48,277 nucleotides of DNA. Origin: Lentisphaeria bacterium (GTDB taxonomy: Bacteria; Verrucomicrobiota; Lentisphaeria; Victivallales; Victivallaceae). A model generated the notes under the pieces. That model was not told the DNA's origin. It ran no database searches and was given only the letters and a program-made list of their open reading frames with translations. Shown here one piece after another: positions 2-48,277 of this stretch (the first letter of the stretch is position 1; each line of letters begins with the position of its first letter). The stretch lies in contig JAFVRD010000003.1 of assembly GCA_017504435.1 (NCBI GenBank), forward strand, positions 1-48,277. Direction: 5' to 3'. Position numbers and translations under genes: made by a program.

Positions 2-1000
2 ATTTCGCTTGGCGAGAGCAATTTGACGGTTTCCGGCGGTACTTTCGATCAGTATGTGGTCGGCGGCAGCCGGGTAACTGCGGCAGATGCCACCACCACC
101 CACACGGTCGGAAAGGTCAATTTGACATTGACCGGCGGCGATTTCGCCTTTGCCGGAACCACCACCGACCCCGGAGCCAGCATTTTCGGAGCCGGTTATG
201 TTCAGGGCAATAACACTGCCGCTGTAAACGCCCAGTATCAAGTTGCCGAAAGCTATGTTACTGTTGCCACAGATATTACCGGCGCGGTTTACGGCGGTGC
301 GTTTGTCAGTAAATCCGGCTTGGCTCAAGTAGATGAAGCAAACATTACGGTTTCAAGCGGTTCAGTCGATCGCGTATTCGGCGGTGGCTGGGCGCAGACC
401 AACGGCATCAGCAATGTCGGCGATGTGAATATCCTGATTGAAAACAGTGCGATAGTGGATACCATCTATGTCGGCGGCGGCAACGATATCTCCGGCGCAA
501 CCAACGTCACCGGAACGGTCACGGTTACGGTAACTGACTTGGCAGCAGTTGACTCCATTTTTATGGGCGGACGGTACAACAACAGCCTGGTGTCCGGCAA
601 TGTCACCGTTACCATCAGCGGCGGAGAAAAAACTTTTGACCGCATCAGCGGCGACGGCAGCTTCCTGGAAAATACCGGAACGAGTTCACTGGTCATTGAT
701 ACGACTGCCACGGTTGAGATGCTCGACGGCATTGATAAACTCACCATTACCGACGGCAGCACGCTGAATCTGACCAATGCGGATTTCACCGGACTGACCG
801 AAATCTGTTTCGATCTGGAAGATGCCGTGTTGGATAACGCCGATTGGACCGTGATGACCGGGGTAAGTCTGAATGAGTTTGAAAACGCCAAATTCATGAT
901 CGGAGAGACCGAAATGACATTTGCCGACAACGTTTACACCGGAGGCGGCTTCAAAGTCTTTGAAGATAAAGATGGTATCAAATTTGCAACCCTCGCATAA
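2..1000 (+). CDS. Giant beta-solenoid surface protein, C-terminal part (5' end outside window)
   Basis: The reading frame is open at the left edge of the window, so this is the last 332 residues of a longer protein; the TTG at 23 is not a real start. The visible part is low-complexity beta-strand repeat: Thr/Val/Gly-rich strands alternating with glycine turns (VYGGAF, VFGGGW, IYVGGG, IFMGGR) every 40-50 residues, as in AIDA/Pmp-like passenger domains. The last 100 residues form a less repetitive domain (TDGSTLNLTNADF, LTEICFDLED) ending in KFATLA. The whole visible part aligns with the C-terminal third of the protein at 45130-48277 (about two thirds identical by eye; shared words GGWAQTNG, NSLVSG, KTFDRISGDGS, NTGTSSL). 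No outer-membrane barrel follows. A surface or secreted role is inferred; how it leaves the cell is unknown. A 37-residue peptide gene follows 15 bp downstream. Confidence 0.75.
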   Translation: MSLGESNLTVSGGTFDQYVVGGSRVTAADATTTHTVGKVNLTLTGGDFAFAGTTTDPGASIFGAGYVQGNNTAAVNAQYQVAESYVTVATDITGAVYGGAFVSKSGLAQVDEANITVSSGSVDRVFGGGWAQTNGISNVGDVNILIENSAIVDTIYVGGGNDISGATNVTGTVTVTVTDLAAVDSIFMGGRYNNSLVSGNVTVTISGGEKTFDRISGDGSFLENTGTSSLVIDTTATVEMLDGIDKLTITDGSTLNLTNADFTGLTEICFDLEDAVLDNADWTVMTGVSLNEFENAKFMIGETEMTFADNVYTGGGFKVFEDKDGIKFATLA

Positions 1001-1015
1001 CAGAAAGAATAAAAA

Positions 1016-1129
1016 ATGAAAGCACAGAAATTCACTTACGAATCCCCGGCTTTGGAAGAGGCGAAATTCGGTCAATTCATCTCCGGAGATACTTTCGGCG
1101 AAACCATGCCGGATGATGATGACGAATAA
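1016..1129 (+). CDS. 37-residue peptide with leader-like motif and acidic tail
   Basis: A small gene 15 bp after the giant surface protein, starting ATG after AGAAAGAATAAAAA. The product begins MKAQKFTYESPALEEAKFGQ and ends in Asp-Asp-Asp-Asp-Glu. A homologue (45000-45113) follows the second giant protein, with the pattern K-F-x-(Y/F)-E-(S/T)-P-x-L-E-E-A-(K/R)-F-G-Q-F-(I/V)-(S/A)-G in both and an acidic C-terminus. The intergenic sequence is also nearly identical, which supports translation. No signal peptide or membrane segment is seen. The Y-x-x-P-x-L spacing recalls leader peptides of some RiPPs (for example lasso peptides), but no maturation enzyme is present in the window and the G-x-F element is shifted by two residues. 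It could equally be a secretion chaperone, a small surface-associated partner or a regulator. Function unknown. Confidence 0.7.
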   Translation: MKAQKFTYESPALEEAKFGQFISGDTFGETMPDDDDE

Positions 1130-38645: not shown

Positions 38646-38733
38646 GGAAGAATGGTCGAGTGGTTTAAGGCAGCGGTCTTGAAAACCGCCGAGGGGCAAC
38701 TCTCCGAGGGTTCGAATCCCTCTTCTTCCGCCA
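38646..38733 (+). tRNA. tRNA-Ser (anticodon UGA)
   Basis: A class II tRNA: acceptor GGAAGAA with TTCTTCC, anticodon arm GCGGT-CTTGAAA-ACCGC giving TGA, a long variable arm, T arm GAGGG-TTCGAAT-CCCTC, discriminator G and encoded CCA (38731-38733). tRNA-Ser genes are frequent integration sites, and a broken integrase lies 1.1 kb downstream. Confidence 0.96.
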
Positions 38734-39447: not shown

Positions 39448-39833
39448 GTTTTTCTGAATAAAAGTGAAGTGATTTTCAGAAATTCATTTCACAGCGAAAT
39501 TCTGAGTTTTCAAGCTCAAAATGCGTTTCAGAATGGCGGGGGAAGATAAAAAAGCCAGCCGACATTTTTGTGCTTATTTTGCCTCAATCAGTACCATTTA
39601 GTACCGTTTGGGGTTTGCATCTTGCAAAAAACAGACCGTTTTCAGCTATATCCGGGAATAGACAGAGGTCATTGCAAAAGTCAATTAAAAAGTGATTGAA
39701 CTCTTATCGTTGATGAGATAAAATCGGTAGTTTGAGTTGGCTACTGAATAATTAACCAACGAAAACGCCCTGTTTTTAGATCACAACGGGAATATTCAAG
39801 GATTTTTAAGAATTTTTGGAAGGACATCAAGAT
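39448..39833. other. Intergenic region of mobile-element remnant
   Basis: AT-rich sequence without coding signal. It contains the tandem words AGTACCATTT and AGTACCGTTT (near 39590-39610) and short palindromes such as AATTCATTTCACAGCGAAATTC. No copy of the tRNA-Ser 3' end was found, so a right attachment site is not visible. Confidence 0.5.
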
Positions 39834-40148
39834 ATGGAAAACGATATGGCTCTCCAAAAAATCAAACTCAAGATCGGTACCGTTTATCAGAAAGAACCCA
39901 ACGGTATCTACTACTTCCGCTATCAGGTCAATGGAGCAAGAAAAGCGATCAGTTTGAAAACCCGCAACAAACAGCAGGCACTCAAAGAAGCAGAAAAGCA
40001 TGTGCCGCTGCTTCAGACTACCTCATCTGAAGTTATTGCAGCCCATGTTCAACATGCCCGCAATCTGGCAACCCCGGAAAAGAATTTGCTTCTTTATCAG
40101 GCTTGGGAAGAATATGAGAAAAGTCCCGACCGGGCAGACTCCCGATAA
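39834..40148 (+). pseudogene. Tyrosine recombinase/phage-type integrase, N-terminal fragment
   Basis: 104 residues matching only the N-terminus of a tyrosine integrase: a small beta DNA-arm-binding-like domain (GTVYQKEPNGIYYFRYQVNG, ARKAISLKTRNKQQALKEAE) and the beginning of the core-binding helix (YQAWEEYEKSPDRADS). Translation stops there; a complete enzyme would need another 200-300 residues including the R-H-R-Y catalytic domain, which is absent. The frame ends two bases before the stop of the convergent GH2 gene, so the rest was replaced or deleted at about 40145. ATG 39834 with AAGGA nine bases upstream is taken as the start. The fragment is the clearest sign of a decayed element integrated at tRNA-Ser. 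Confidence 0.75.
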
Positions 40149-44946: not shown

Positions 44947-44984
44947 GTTAAAAACGCCCGGAGCGTTTTGTAACGTTCCGGGCG
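44947..44984 (-). terminator. Rho-independent terminator after the second 37-residue peptide
   Basis: On the minus strand CGCCCGGAACG (44984-44974) pairs with CGCTCCGGGCG (44965-44955), one mismatch, then TTTTTAA. It starts 15 bp after the peptide stop, so the giant protein and peptide are probably one transcript, and it separates them from the GH78-GH2 genes. Confidence 0.85.
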
Positions 44985-44999
44985 AAATTTTTGACTCAA

Positions 45000-45113
45000 T
45001 TATTCAGCGTCTTCATCGCCGTAGTTGCCGCCTTCGCCGCTGGCTCCGGCAACGAACTGACCGAAACGAGCTTCTTCCAGCATCGGGGTTTCAAATTCAA
45101 ATTTTTCTTTCAT
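45000..45113 (-). CDS. 37-residue peptide with leader-like motif and acidic tail, second copy
   Basis: The paralogue of the gene at 1016-1129. The product begins MKEKFEFETPMLEEARFGQF and ends in Gly-Asp-Glu-Asp-Ala-Glu after a Gly/Ser-rich stretch. Between the two copies the first 24 residues are well conserved (F-E-x-P-x-L-E-E-A-basic-F-G-Q-F-hydrophobic-small-Gly), while the middle of the tail differs but stays acidic. This is the pattern of a conserved recognition segment plus variable cargo, or of a binding motif with a disordered tail. It starts 16 bp after the giant protein gene with AAAGGA upstream, and is followed by a strong terminator. No known family assigned. Confidence 0.75.
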   Translation of the reverse strand: MKEKFEFETPMLEEARFGQFVAGASGEGGNYGDEDAE

Positions 45114-45129: not shown

Positions 45130-48100
45130 TTATGCAAGTTTCGCAAATTTGATACTGTTATCTTCTTCATACACTTTGAATCCGCTTCCAGAGTAAACTC
45201 CATCTGCCAGAATCATTTCTGTGTCATCGACCATGAATTTGACTCCGTTGAAGTTATCCAGACTGACACCGGTCATCGCAGTCCAGTCTGCGGCATCCAG
45301 CATACCATCACCAAGATCAAAGCAAATCTCGCTCAATCCGGCAAAATCCGCATCAGTCAGATTCAATTGGCTGCCATCGGTAATGGTGAGTTTATCAATG
45401 CCGTCCAGCAGTGCGACATCCACGACCGTATCGATGATCAGCGAACTTGTTCCGGTGTTTTCCAGATGAGAGCCATCGCCGCTGATGCGGTCAAATGTTT
45501 TTTCATCACCGGTAATGGTGACTGTAACATCACCGGAAACCAGACTCTTGTTGTATTTGCCGCCCATAAACAATTCAGTTACGGCAGCATTGCCTGAAAT
45601 CGTGATATCAACCATTCCGGTCACTTCGGTATTTCCATCCGCATTCGCGCCACCGGCATAAAGTTCGGTCACCGAACCGTTATTGATATTGACTTGTATA
45701 TTGCCGACTTTGCTCAAGCCATTGGTTTGTGCCCATCCGCCGCAAACGAGGGTATTTATGCTGCCGGATTCCACTGTGATATTCACTTCACCAACTTCGG
45801 CATAACCGCAATATGAAGTATACGCACCGCCGTACAGTACACCCGGAACAAGTACCGCACCGTCAACGGTCACATTGCAGGTATCAACATAATACTGCAT
45901 CGTATCGGAGGCACTCTTAGTGCCGACCACATATCCGGCTGAAAAAACACCGGTTCCCTGATCAGTGCTGGTTCCAACTCCGGCGAAATTGCCGCCGTTC
46001 AAGGTCAAATTCACATTGGTTACTTCGTGAGTCAATGCTGTAGTTCCGACATCGACCCGGCTGCCGCCAATGATGTTGCTGTTGAAAGTACCGGAATCAA
46101 TGGTCAAATTGCTGTTGGTAAGGGAAATTTTCTGCGTGGCTTTTGAAGCAAGGAAACCACCGTACACACTCATACCGACTTCGCCGCCGTTGATGGTCAG
46201 ATTGGTGGTGTCAGCGGAAACTTTACCGCCACCATAGAGGTTCTTTTTGATCGAACCGCCGGTAATGACGGTGGTAACAACACCATCAGAACCATTCTGG
46301 CTTCCGGCAAAGACCGTACCCTGTTTGAATCCGGAAGCGATAGTCTGGGTGATGTCACTGCCGTCATTTTCTGTGTCGTTGCCGCCGCCATAGACTGAAC
46401 CGGTGGAGTTCTCTTCCAGAACACCGTCTTTTTCAACTTTGACCTTCAGCACCAGATTCCCGTCAACGATATCAAGATAACCTTTTTCCACATTGGTAAC
46501 ACTGTCATCATCGCCGAGAGTACCGGTAACTCCGGTGGCAATGACTGCCCCGGCTTCAAGTCCGGTACCATCAACGGTGATGGTGATACCGCTCAAATCG
46601 GTATTAACGGTAAAGGCAAGAGCCGCACCGGCATTGAAGGTGATTTCGCTGAAACCCAGAGATCCGCCGGAAATAGTGTTGTTCCCGGAGAGATTCAGCA
46701 AGGTACCGCCAAATATTGCGTCAGTAACCGTAATCGCGGCATTGTCAAGGTTTACATTACCACTGCCGGACAGATCTGCACGCAGATCCATAGTTCCGGA
46801 AATATTCAGAGCATTCTGGTTGTAAATGGTATCTGTTGTGCTTAAAAATTCCGTATTGGTCAGAGTCAAAACTCCGGCATTGTAGATAGCACCACCGTTA
46901 CCGGTGGCTTTATTGCCGGAGAAAGTGACATTTTGCAATATCATTTCGCTGTTATTGTAAATAGCTCCGCCATTTTCAGCAGAGTTATTGGTAAATTCAC
47001 CACTGTTTTGCTCATAACTTGCGGTATAATCAGCATTAGTGGCATAGTTGAACACTGCACCGCCCAAACTTCCTGCCGCTTCAGCTTTGTTATTGCTGAA
47101 ATCGACGTTGGTCAATGTCGCGGTTCCTCCGGAAACAGATGCTCCGCGATTCTGCAACGCACCGCGGCTTTTGGCGGTGGTATTGGAAATCGTGGTATCA
47201 GCGATCGTCATTTGACTGTTCTGACCGGTAATGGCGATACCGCCGTATACATCGGCACTAGTAATGTTGTTGAAAACCGCGCCATTAATATCCAATACAC
47301 TATTAGTGACATTGACCGCTTGAGCAGAGCCGGTGAAAGATGCACCGGATTTGATTTCCAGTTTGTCTTGACTTGTGCCATTAACGGTGATGGACGGTAA
47401 TGCTGCATCCGAATAAATTTCTTTGATCTTGCCATCCAGAGAGGTTATTGCATAGATCGCATCAAATACTTGCAGACAGAGTGCATTGTCAGCATTGGTA
47501 TTCAGCAGCAGATAGTTGTCTCCGAATTTCTGTGGAGCGGCATCCACGGTTAAGGTGACACTGGTTTCGGGGAGAGCGATGTCATATACCGAAACCGAAG
47601 TAATCGCATTGCCGGTTCCAATAAGTTTGTAACTGCCGCTTGCCTGATTTGCTGCCATGCCGACACTGAAAGAGACGTTTTTACCCAATGTAACATGTGG
47701 AGTGTGAAAAATCACGCTGTCATCACTGGTCCTATCCGCAATCAGCAGGGAAATCTCCGTATTGTCCGCGATATTTATTTTCTTGGATACTCCACTGACA
47801 ACTCCAATCGCGACATTTCCTGCAAGAGAGATTTTTCCGCTCCAATTCATTGTACCTTTGTTATAAATCGTATCGGATTTAGACGCAAAAACCGTGTTGC
47901 TGATGTTGATTGTACCGGCATTGTTATAAATCGCCGCACCACCGTCAGAATTTTTGGAAGTATTTCCGGAAAACGTTGAATTGCTGATCGAAATAACGAC
48001 ATTGGCGTTATTGCTGAAAATTGCGCCACCGTTATTTGCTGCGGTTCCGGTACATTTATTATTGCTGATGGTGGAATCGTCAATAGTGATTTTAGCAGCG

Positions 48101-48277
48101 GCAGAGTCTGCATAGATTGCACTGCCGAGATTTGTAGCGGTATTATTGTCAATGAGAGCATCATTCAATGTCAATGTTCCGCCTTTAACATAAAACGCTC
48201 CACCGCGGTAGGCAGTGTTTTCAGAAATGACAGTTTCTGTTAATGTTGAAGTGCCGCCCTCCATATAAAGCGCAGCC
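45130..48277 (-). CDS. Giant Pmp/AIDA-like surface protein, 5' end outside window
   Basis: About 1048 residues are visible and the frame is still open at the right edge, so the ATG at 48264 is not the true start. The N-terminal part of the visible chain has chlamydial polymorphic-outer-membrane-protein repeats: NNGGAIFSN, FSGNTS, GGAIYNN, FSGNKATGNGGAIYNAG, each about 25-40 residues and predicted to wind a beta-helix. From about residue 630 it changes to GSVYGGGN / LYGGGK / SVYGGF / NIIGGSR repeats, then the region homologous to the protein at 2-1000, ending KFAKLA. No outer-membrane beta-barrel follows, unlike Pmp autotransporters. Adhesin-like surface display is inferred; the conserved C-terminal domain may be a sorting signal. 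A peptide gene follows 16 bp downstream. Confidence 0.8.
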   Translation of the reverse strand, partial: AALYMEGGTSTLTETVISENTAYRGGAFYVKGGTLTLNDALIDNNTATNLGSAIYADSAAAKITIDDSTISNNKCTGTAANNGGAIFSNNANVVISISNSTFSGNTSKNSDGGAAIYNNAGTINISNTVFASKSDTIYNKGTMNWSGKISLAGNVAIGVVSGVSKKINIADNTEISLLIADRTSDDSVIFHTPHVTLGKNVSFSVGMAANQASGSYKLIGTGNAITSVSVYDIALPETSVTLTVDAAPQKFGDNYLLLNTNADNALCLQVFDAIYAITSLDGKIKEIYSDAALPSITVNGTSQDKLEIKSGASFTGSAQAVNVTNSVLDINGAVFNNITSADVYGGIAITGQNSQMTIADTTISNTTAKSRGALQNRGASVSGGTATLTNVDFSNNKAEAAGSLGGAVFNYATNADYTASYEQNSGEFTNNSAENGGAIYNNSEMILQNVTFSGNKATGNGGAIYNAGVLTLTNTEFLSTTDTIYNQNALNISGTMDLRADLSGSGNVNLDNAAITVTDAIFGGTLLNLSGNNTISGGSLGFSEITFNAGAALAFTVNTDLSGITITVDGTGLEAGAVIATGVTGTLGDDDSVTNVEKGYLDIVDGNLVLKVKVEKDGVLEENSTGSVYGGGNDTENDGSDITQTIASGFKQGTVFAGSQNGSDGVVTTVITGGSIKKNLYGGGKVSADTTNLTINGGEVGMSVYGGFLASKATQKISLTNSNLTIDSGTFNSNIIGGSRVDVGTTALTHEVTNVNLTLNGGNFAGVGTSTDQGTGVFSAGYVVGTKSASDTMQYYVDTCNVTVDGAVLVPGVLYGGAYTSYCGYAEVGEVNITVESGSINTLVCGGWAQTNGLSKVGNIQVNINNGSVTELYAGGANADGNTEVTGMVDITISGNAAVTELFMGGKYNKSLVSGDVTVTITGDEKTFDRISGDGSHLENTGTSSLIIDTVVDVALLDGIDKLTITDGSQLNLTDADFAGLSEICFDLGDGMLDAADWTAMTGVSLDNFNGVKFMVDDTEMILADGVYSGSGFKVYEEDNSIKFAKLA

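Follow-up and report, generated by a model that had tools for sequence, protein, structure and literature searches.

The window analysed here, 48,277 nucleotides long, is an entire contig of a 2.26-Mb Lentisphaeria genome (G000). Genes for giant repeat proteins lie open at both of its ends, and each is followed by a gene for a 37-residue peptide (Table 1). The first-pass annotation had described a 37-codon gene directly after a giant gene and a paralogue of the same length behind a second one, and both were found exactly as placed: 15 nt separate the stop codon of the first giant frame from copy 1, and copy 2 starts 16 nt past the second giant. The two peptides are 53% identical, and their same length arises via small indels. 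Copy 1 is preceded by the sequence cagaaagaataaaaa, and its ribosome-binding stretch recurs ahead of the other peptide copies. Because of the terminator-like hairpin behind it (identified by a scan scored on the + strand), copy 2 looks like the last gene of its giant–peptide unit. Elsewhere in the window, a 110-aa frame about 1.1 kb from a tRNA-Ser gene resembles the N-terminus of a tyrosine recombinase; it has no Pfam match and is possibly an integration remnant.

Table 1. Features of the window (coordinates in nucleotides from its first position).
Feature	Position	Strand	Description
Giant repeat protein 1, C-terminal part	2..1000	+	Open at contig start; C-terminal family A2; ends ...GFKVFEDKDGIKFATLA, then stop
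Ribosome-binding stretch gaaagaataaaaa	1003..1015	+	Inside the 15-nt giant-to-peptide gap
Peptide gene copy 1	1016-1129	+	ATG start, 37 codons; reads MKAQKFTYESPALEEAKFGQFISGDTFGETMPDDDDE, then stop; leader with Y8-x-x-P11-x-L13 and FGxF, then invariant G24, then acidic tail
tRNA-Ser	38646-38733
Recombinase-like frame	39816-40148	+	110 aa
Terminator-like hairpin, 13 bp	44955..44984	-	Strong; directly 3' of copy 2; T-runs on both sides
Peptide gene copy 2	45000-45113	-	37 aa; reads MKEKFEFETPMLEEARFGQFVAGASGEGGNYGDEDAE, then stop; F-x-x-P-x-L leader, FGQF, G, acidic tail
Giant repeat protein 2	45130..48276	-	Open at contig end; Chlam_PMP-type repeats; ends ...FKVYEEDNSIKFAKLA, then stop

The genome carries seven copies of the peptide gene, on contigs C3, C8, C12 (two copies), C43, C53 and C56, and all seven lie directly behind a conserved giant C-terminus. 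Its congener G162 has 16 copies, all of a second type (MKFDYEHPELAEVDFGKFASGASKAPDYDDDTDDLGL and variants), most of them behind giants. Five near-identical copies in G000 and many of those in G162 are recent duplicates and not independent. Both window ends (1–1000 and 45130–48277) and most ends of the peptide-bearing contigs fall inside giant genes; as giant repeats break the assembly of these genomes, which look like metagenome assemblies, the copy numbers are lower bounds. The annotation had proposed to check whether the peptide always follows a giant repeat protein, and it almost always does; a solitary family member (MMKKLEYDYPALEDASFGTFICGDTPMTPGPSEDGETDDLGGGID) on contig C5 of G162 (L035, 2486–2623, +) has no recognisable giant directly upstream. 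The annotation knew of no described family with this pattern; in agreement, the peptide matched no Pfam or NCBIfam model, and no description of the giant–peptide pairing was found in the open-access literature.

A narrow peptide profile, searched against 388 genomes of the phylum, gave almost no matches beyond one congener. More divergent relatives were reached by searching with a profile of the giant C-terminus (A2) and then inspecting the sequence downstream. This search showed that the family is present in other genomes and genera, where small genes starting with YxxPx[LI], mostly with a Shine–Dalgarno-like stretch, lie behind giants with related C-termini (for example MEKEKLNYEAPEITELDSKILAKGTDMGGEASGMVPVDPEW in G300, MEKDKFEYETPALEPMTEKVTAVQGATGVDPDPEHPGID in G009, MDTKQKYEMPEIKELTATVVALGQSLLEGLPGLDDEEED in G138 and MKECQEVYEAPEIEEIATTLFAGAEPVGSPVVPDPGDSSLWD in G239). 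The relatives of G000 in the named collection are metagenome-assembled genomes of Lentisphaeria and Victivallaceae, among them some recovered from the faeces of horses and the caecum of roe deer. With the two dense genomes excluded, a YxxPx[LI] peptide was found behind 9 of the 13 A2-found giant ends inspected, compared with 13 of 902 ends of other ORFs of at least 250 codons. Six of these 13 background matches were judged to belong to the family: five lie in a kinase operon or follow giants cut off by a contig end, and the sixth is the solitary C5 copy of G162. This leaves about 7 of 896 as background; the enrichment is significant even at the uncorrected rate (P = 2e-14). The giant family was sampled through a single C-terminal profile, and giants without a peptide were also seen, in G055, G064 and G393 and once each in G162 and G259. 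G064 has PqqD, the kinase and a giant with no visible peptide, and on contig C44 of G259 (L074, 9291–17327, -) a giant of at least 2388 aa is directly followed by an HprK-like kinase gene, with no peptide between. We conclude that the peptide family is real, far beyond chance.

The front half of the peptide had been described as conserved and the tails as variable, and the substitution pattern bears this out. Among the five near-identical copies of G000, pN/pS was 0.34 in the leader (codons 1–24) and 1.00 in the tail (codons 25–37), and seven divergent leaders gave a pS of 0.76 and a pN of 0.30. Purifying selection acts on the leader half but not on the acidic tail. P11, L13 and G24 are invariant in a 15-sequence alignment (A3), and 16 residues separate the Tyr from the invariant Gly. 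The tails (for example DTFGETMPDDDDE and GASKAPDYDDDTDDLGL) are acidic, contain much Gly, Pro and Ser/Thr and in most cases no Cys, and vary strongly between species. All 12 FGxF peptides listed have a Ser or Thr as the second residue after the Gly (as in G-D-T, G-E-S and G-A-S). Some operon peptides in the wider family lack a Ser/Thr at this position, which is occupied by Arg in one G162 copy. The gene product thus has the form of a RiPP precursor, that is, a short gene-encoded peptide with a conserved leader and a variable core. A chance frame was rejected by the pN/pS values and the background counts. The small frame could also be a translated attenuator, or a leftover of duplicated giant cassettes, whose product has no function, as its copies were amplified together with the giants and their tails are of low complexity. 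This reading is already largely refuted and strikes us as very improbable, given the selection on the leader, the conservation of YxxPx[LI] across genera, the position of the frame downstream rather than upstream of the giant gene, and its tie to PqqD and HprK.

The annotation had likened the leader to motifs bound by RRE domains in RiPP pathways, and this likeness is well supported by the distribution of candidate partners. A PqqD-type RRE is encoded in 32 of the 78 genomes of the family (31 above the curated cut-off). The HprK-like kinase was found in 30 genomes, each of which belongs to the PqqD set. Both are present in every one of the 12 peptide-bearing genomes (Fisher P = 5e-6 for PqqD, phylogeny ignored), and the RRE is operon-linked to the peptide in several, as would be looked for in a RiPP system. 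The genomes had been chosen by giant and peptide searches before the family-wide PqqD search was made, with the exception of G239, whose peptide was recognised afterwards. The best solved matches to the PqqD profile were the lasso B1 proteins TbiB1 and TfuB1, and clients of the lasso B1 class carry YxxPxL leaders. The kinase, which had not been foreseen, is the linked candidate for a modifying enzyme: its profile matches HPr kinase, its predicted model (pLDDT 89) has the HprK/PEPCK fold, and its His, P-loop residues and Asp-Asp are invariant.

Gene order ties these proteins to the peptide. The order giant, peptide, HprK was found in G009, G011, G239, G138 and G398; PqqD follows HprK in four of these, and in G138 it lies some 5 kb on, on the other strand. 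An S24/S26-like peptidase, a nucleotidyltransferase (NTP_transf_5) and a second ABC exporter are found downstream in some of these operons. In G186 and G397 an HprK–PqqD–ABC–S24 set is joined to the genes for type I secretion. G022, G031, G064 and G386 have the arrangement T1SS, HlyD, PqqD, S24, radical SAM, HprK. In G000, the kinase and the RRE are unlinked to the peptide genes: a stand-alone PqqD lies on C53, where its neighbours are argF and an mntP-like gene (named by sequence resemblance only), and C37 carries a stand-alone HprK. The synteny of both places extends to G398 and, to judge from the frames, to G162; no congeners other than these two have FGxF peptides. Contig C41 of G000 (L069, 9338–10183, +) also encodes a fusion in which a PqqD-like domain at the N-terminus is combined with an S24/S26 signal-peptidase-like domain at the C-terminus; its apparent operon also encodes an S24-like protein, an MGH1-like glycosidase and a 2100-aa protein. 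A protease or ABC transporter had been proposed as a partner of the peptide. The first part stands in the form of the S24/S26-like peptidase linked or fused to PqqD, which is suggestive of leader removal; the second does not, the C39-like domain of the ABC transporter having lost its catalytic Cys. Double-glycine cleavage by the exporter was rejected on the same ground. A double-glycine-like spacing (L-12, F-7, F-4, small-2, G-1) fits by eye, and spacing alone is insufficient.

The closest parallels are the phosphorylated lasso peptide systems. In that of Bradymonas, an HprK-like kinase phosphorylates Ser3 of the core in a precursor with YxxPxL at positions -17 to -12, and the kinase reaction is strongly sped up by the PqqD-like B1 protein (RRE) (PMC10368454). 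The His, P-loop and Asp-Asp motif of the Bradymonas kinase BsfK was reported to be important, whereas the Y, P and L of YxxPxL in the precursor BsfA could be replaced with phosphorylation retained (PMC10368454); YxxPxL therefore need not be the sole contact and is no proof of function. The systems of Bradymonas (bsfA-B1-K-N), paeninodin and pseudomycoidin share with the present family a YxxPxL leader at near-equal distance to a conserved Gly, a stand-alone PqqD-type RRE, and an HprK-like kinase with His, P-loop and Asp-Asp, and their nucleotidyltransferase and ABC exporter are matched in some operons here (PMC10368454, PMC8498205). In contrast to them, the precursor described here is tied to a giant exported protein. 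The HprK-like protein is, by this analogy, probably a peptide-modifying enzyme. A lasso peptide was itself ruled out, since there is neither a B2 protease nor a clustered cyclase: PF13471, the family of the transglutaminase-like B2 leader peptidase, gave no match in 16 genomes, and no match to Asn_synthase (lasso cyclase C) coincides with the peptide operons inspected. Each genome has a single full-length Asn_synthase frame of about 640 aa (G135 has two), the remaining matches being short and partial.

A radical SAM enzyme had also been proposed as a partner, and this was not borne out. No SPASM radical SAM protein was found in G000 or in two other peptide-bearing genomes (G259 and G138), so that such a step is not needed, and a radical SAM/SPASM RiPP was rejected as the general route. 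SynChlorMet systems, with the radical SAM proteins ScmE and ScmF, resemble the present one in that ScmC (kinase-like) and ScmD (PqqD-like) are the best-scoring models for the HprK-like and the PqqD-like protein, and in that the clusters of G022, G031, G064 and G386 also hold a radical SAM gene (ScmE-like in the one scanned). They differ in that G000 lacks a SPASM protein and the peptide has no NCBIfam match. The best scores for ScmC, ScmD and ScmE (45, 64 and 173 bits against curated cut-offs of 125, 100 and 400) all fall well below those cut-offs, and membership of SynChlorMet was rejected. On contig C24 of G162 (L072, 5291–8803, -), a 45-aa Cys-containing peptide (MAYKKPQMVAKSSAKKSYVAGCPTRTPERHYCSNLNISCMCGKLD) is encoded upstream of two successive radical SAM/SPASM proteins, of which one has a PqqD domain, in what looks like a separate RiPP locus.

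The giants had been called beta-solenoids. They have repeat-like sequence with five Chlam_PMP repeats, and the predicted model of the C-terminus (pLDDT 87) is strand-rich; a solenoid is not established beyond these features, and the C-terminal model had no match below E 0.8 among solved structures. Complete giants have no strongly hydrophobic N-terminus (counted from the likely starts, hydropathy over 12 residues peaks at about 1.6 or less, compared with 2.8 in Sec-type controls). One of them, on contig C9 of G162 (L033, 11339–14194, +), carries a zinc-metallopeptidase-like motif (HEVGHIVFGETHAGEG) near its N-terminus and has weak matches to reprolysin-like models. A C39-family domain on a long frame was present in all 13 genomes tested, peptide-less ones included; the eight such frames that were aligned are ABC transporters of about 850 residues in which inspection by eye shows another residue in place of the catalytic Cys of the C39 motif. 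Contig C40 of G000 encodes an HlyB-like/HlyD pair (HlyB being the nearest NCBIfam model but below its cut-off, HlyD above). The HlyB-like transporter (L070, 7406–9964, -) has about 300 residues ahead of its membrane domain, apparently two tandem C39-like domains of which the second is without the catalytic Cys. Since a Sec-type N-terminus is absent and HlyB-like ABC and HlyD proteins are present, the giants are likely, on predicted features, to be exported by HlyB/HlyD-type type I secretion. They share with HlyB/HlyD-secreted adhesins of the LapA/BapA type the combination of giant repeat proteins lacking a Sec signal, an HlyB-like ABC transporter with an inactive C39-like domain, and HlyD, while differing in a C-terminal domain that matches nothing solved. 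Among known T1SS adhesins, none was found that has an RRE-bound peptide dedicated to it.

This setting raises the question of whether the peptide serves the giant as a secretion helper or adapter, binding either the giant itself or the type I transporter, with PqqD and the kinase handling a regulated chaperone rather than a RiPP precursor. Its strict position behind the giant, the hairpin behind copy 2, the lack of a Sec signal in the giants and the T1SS clusters with PqqD, S24 and HprK in six genomes (G186, G397, G022, G031, G064 and G386) would all suit such a role. However, the C39-domain frames (T1SS-type ABC transporters in those aligned) occur also in peptide-less genomes, the peptide-less giants of G055 and G393 imply that the peptide is not generally required for export, and a conserved leader with a free tail suits a precursor better. 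We consider a helper or adapter unlikely. A second alternative is a free diffusible RiPP, such as a signal or an antibacterial, whose gene sits behind the giant only for co-expression. The RRE, kinase, peptidase, nucleotidyltransferase and second ABC exporter of some canonical operons would fit this, as would the strong variation of the tails between species. Yet near-identical copies are numerous and each comes with a giant of its own, and the pairing persists across genera; both points speak for a function linked to the giant. Moreover, acidic, Gly/Pro-rich, mostly Cys-free tails are, in our judgement, unlike typical antibacterial cores. A free product seems to us quite improbable.

We favour, with moderate confidence, the reading that the peptide is an RRE-guided, kinase-modified, RiPP-like precursor dedicated to type-I-secreted giants. 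The N-terminal 23–24 residues (Y-x-x-P-x-L ... F-G-x-F-x-x-G) would be the leader, bound by the free-standing PqqD-type RRE. On the peptide held in this way, the HprK-like kinase would phosphorylate a Ser/Thr of the tail, most likely the one two residues after the Gly, and the RRE-linked S24/S26-like peptidase (in G000 the PqqD–S24 fusion) may then remove the leader. The short acidic and probably phosphorylated tail would act jointly with the giant encoded ahead of the peptide gene, itself exported most likely through an HlyB/HlyD-type type I secretion system. We infer RRE binding, the phosphorylation and its site, and leader cleavage by analogy with the Bradymonas lasso system; for export and joint action with the giant, it is the pairing of peptide and giant that suggests a surface or export role of the tail.

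RREs and HprK-like peptide kinases are already known from natural-product clusters, and their link to giant exported proteins is the new part. More tentatively, and with rather less than even confidence, we propose that a RiPP-type pathway, with an RRE and an HprK-like kinase and with neither lasso cyclase nor radical SAM enzyme, has been turned into a dedicated accessory of giant surface proteins exported by type I secretion. Each giant would have its own phosphorylated acidic peptide, which would be displayed with it, anchor it or license it, and one shared RRE/kinase pair would serve many cassettes. In gut Lentisphaeria of several genera, up to 16 peptide copies were detected per genome, with the enzymes shared and unlinked. 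If this proposal is true, RiPP-type chemistry would reach beyond small-molecule production to the cell surface.
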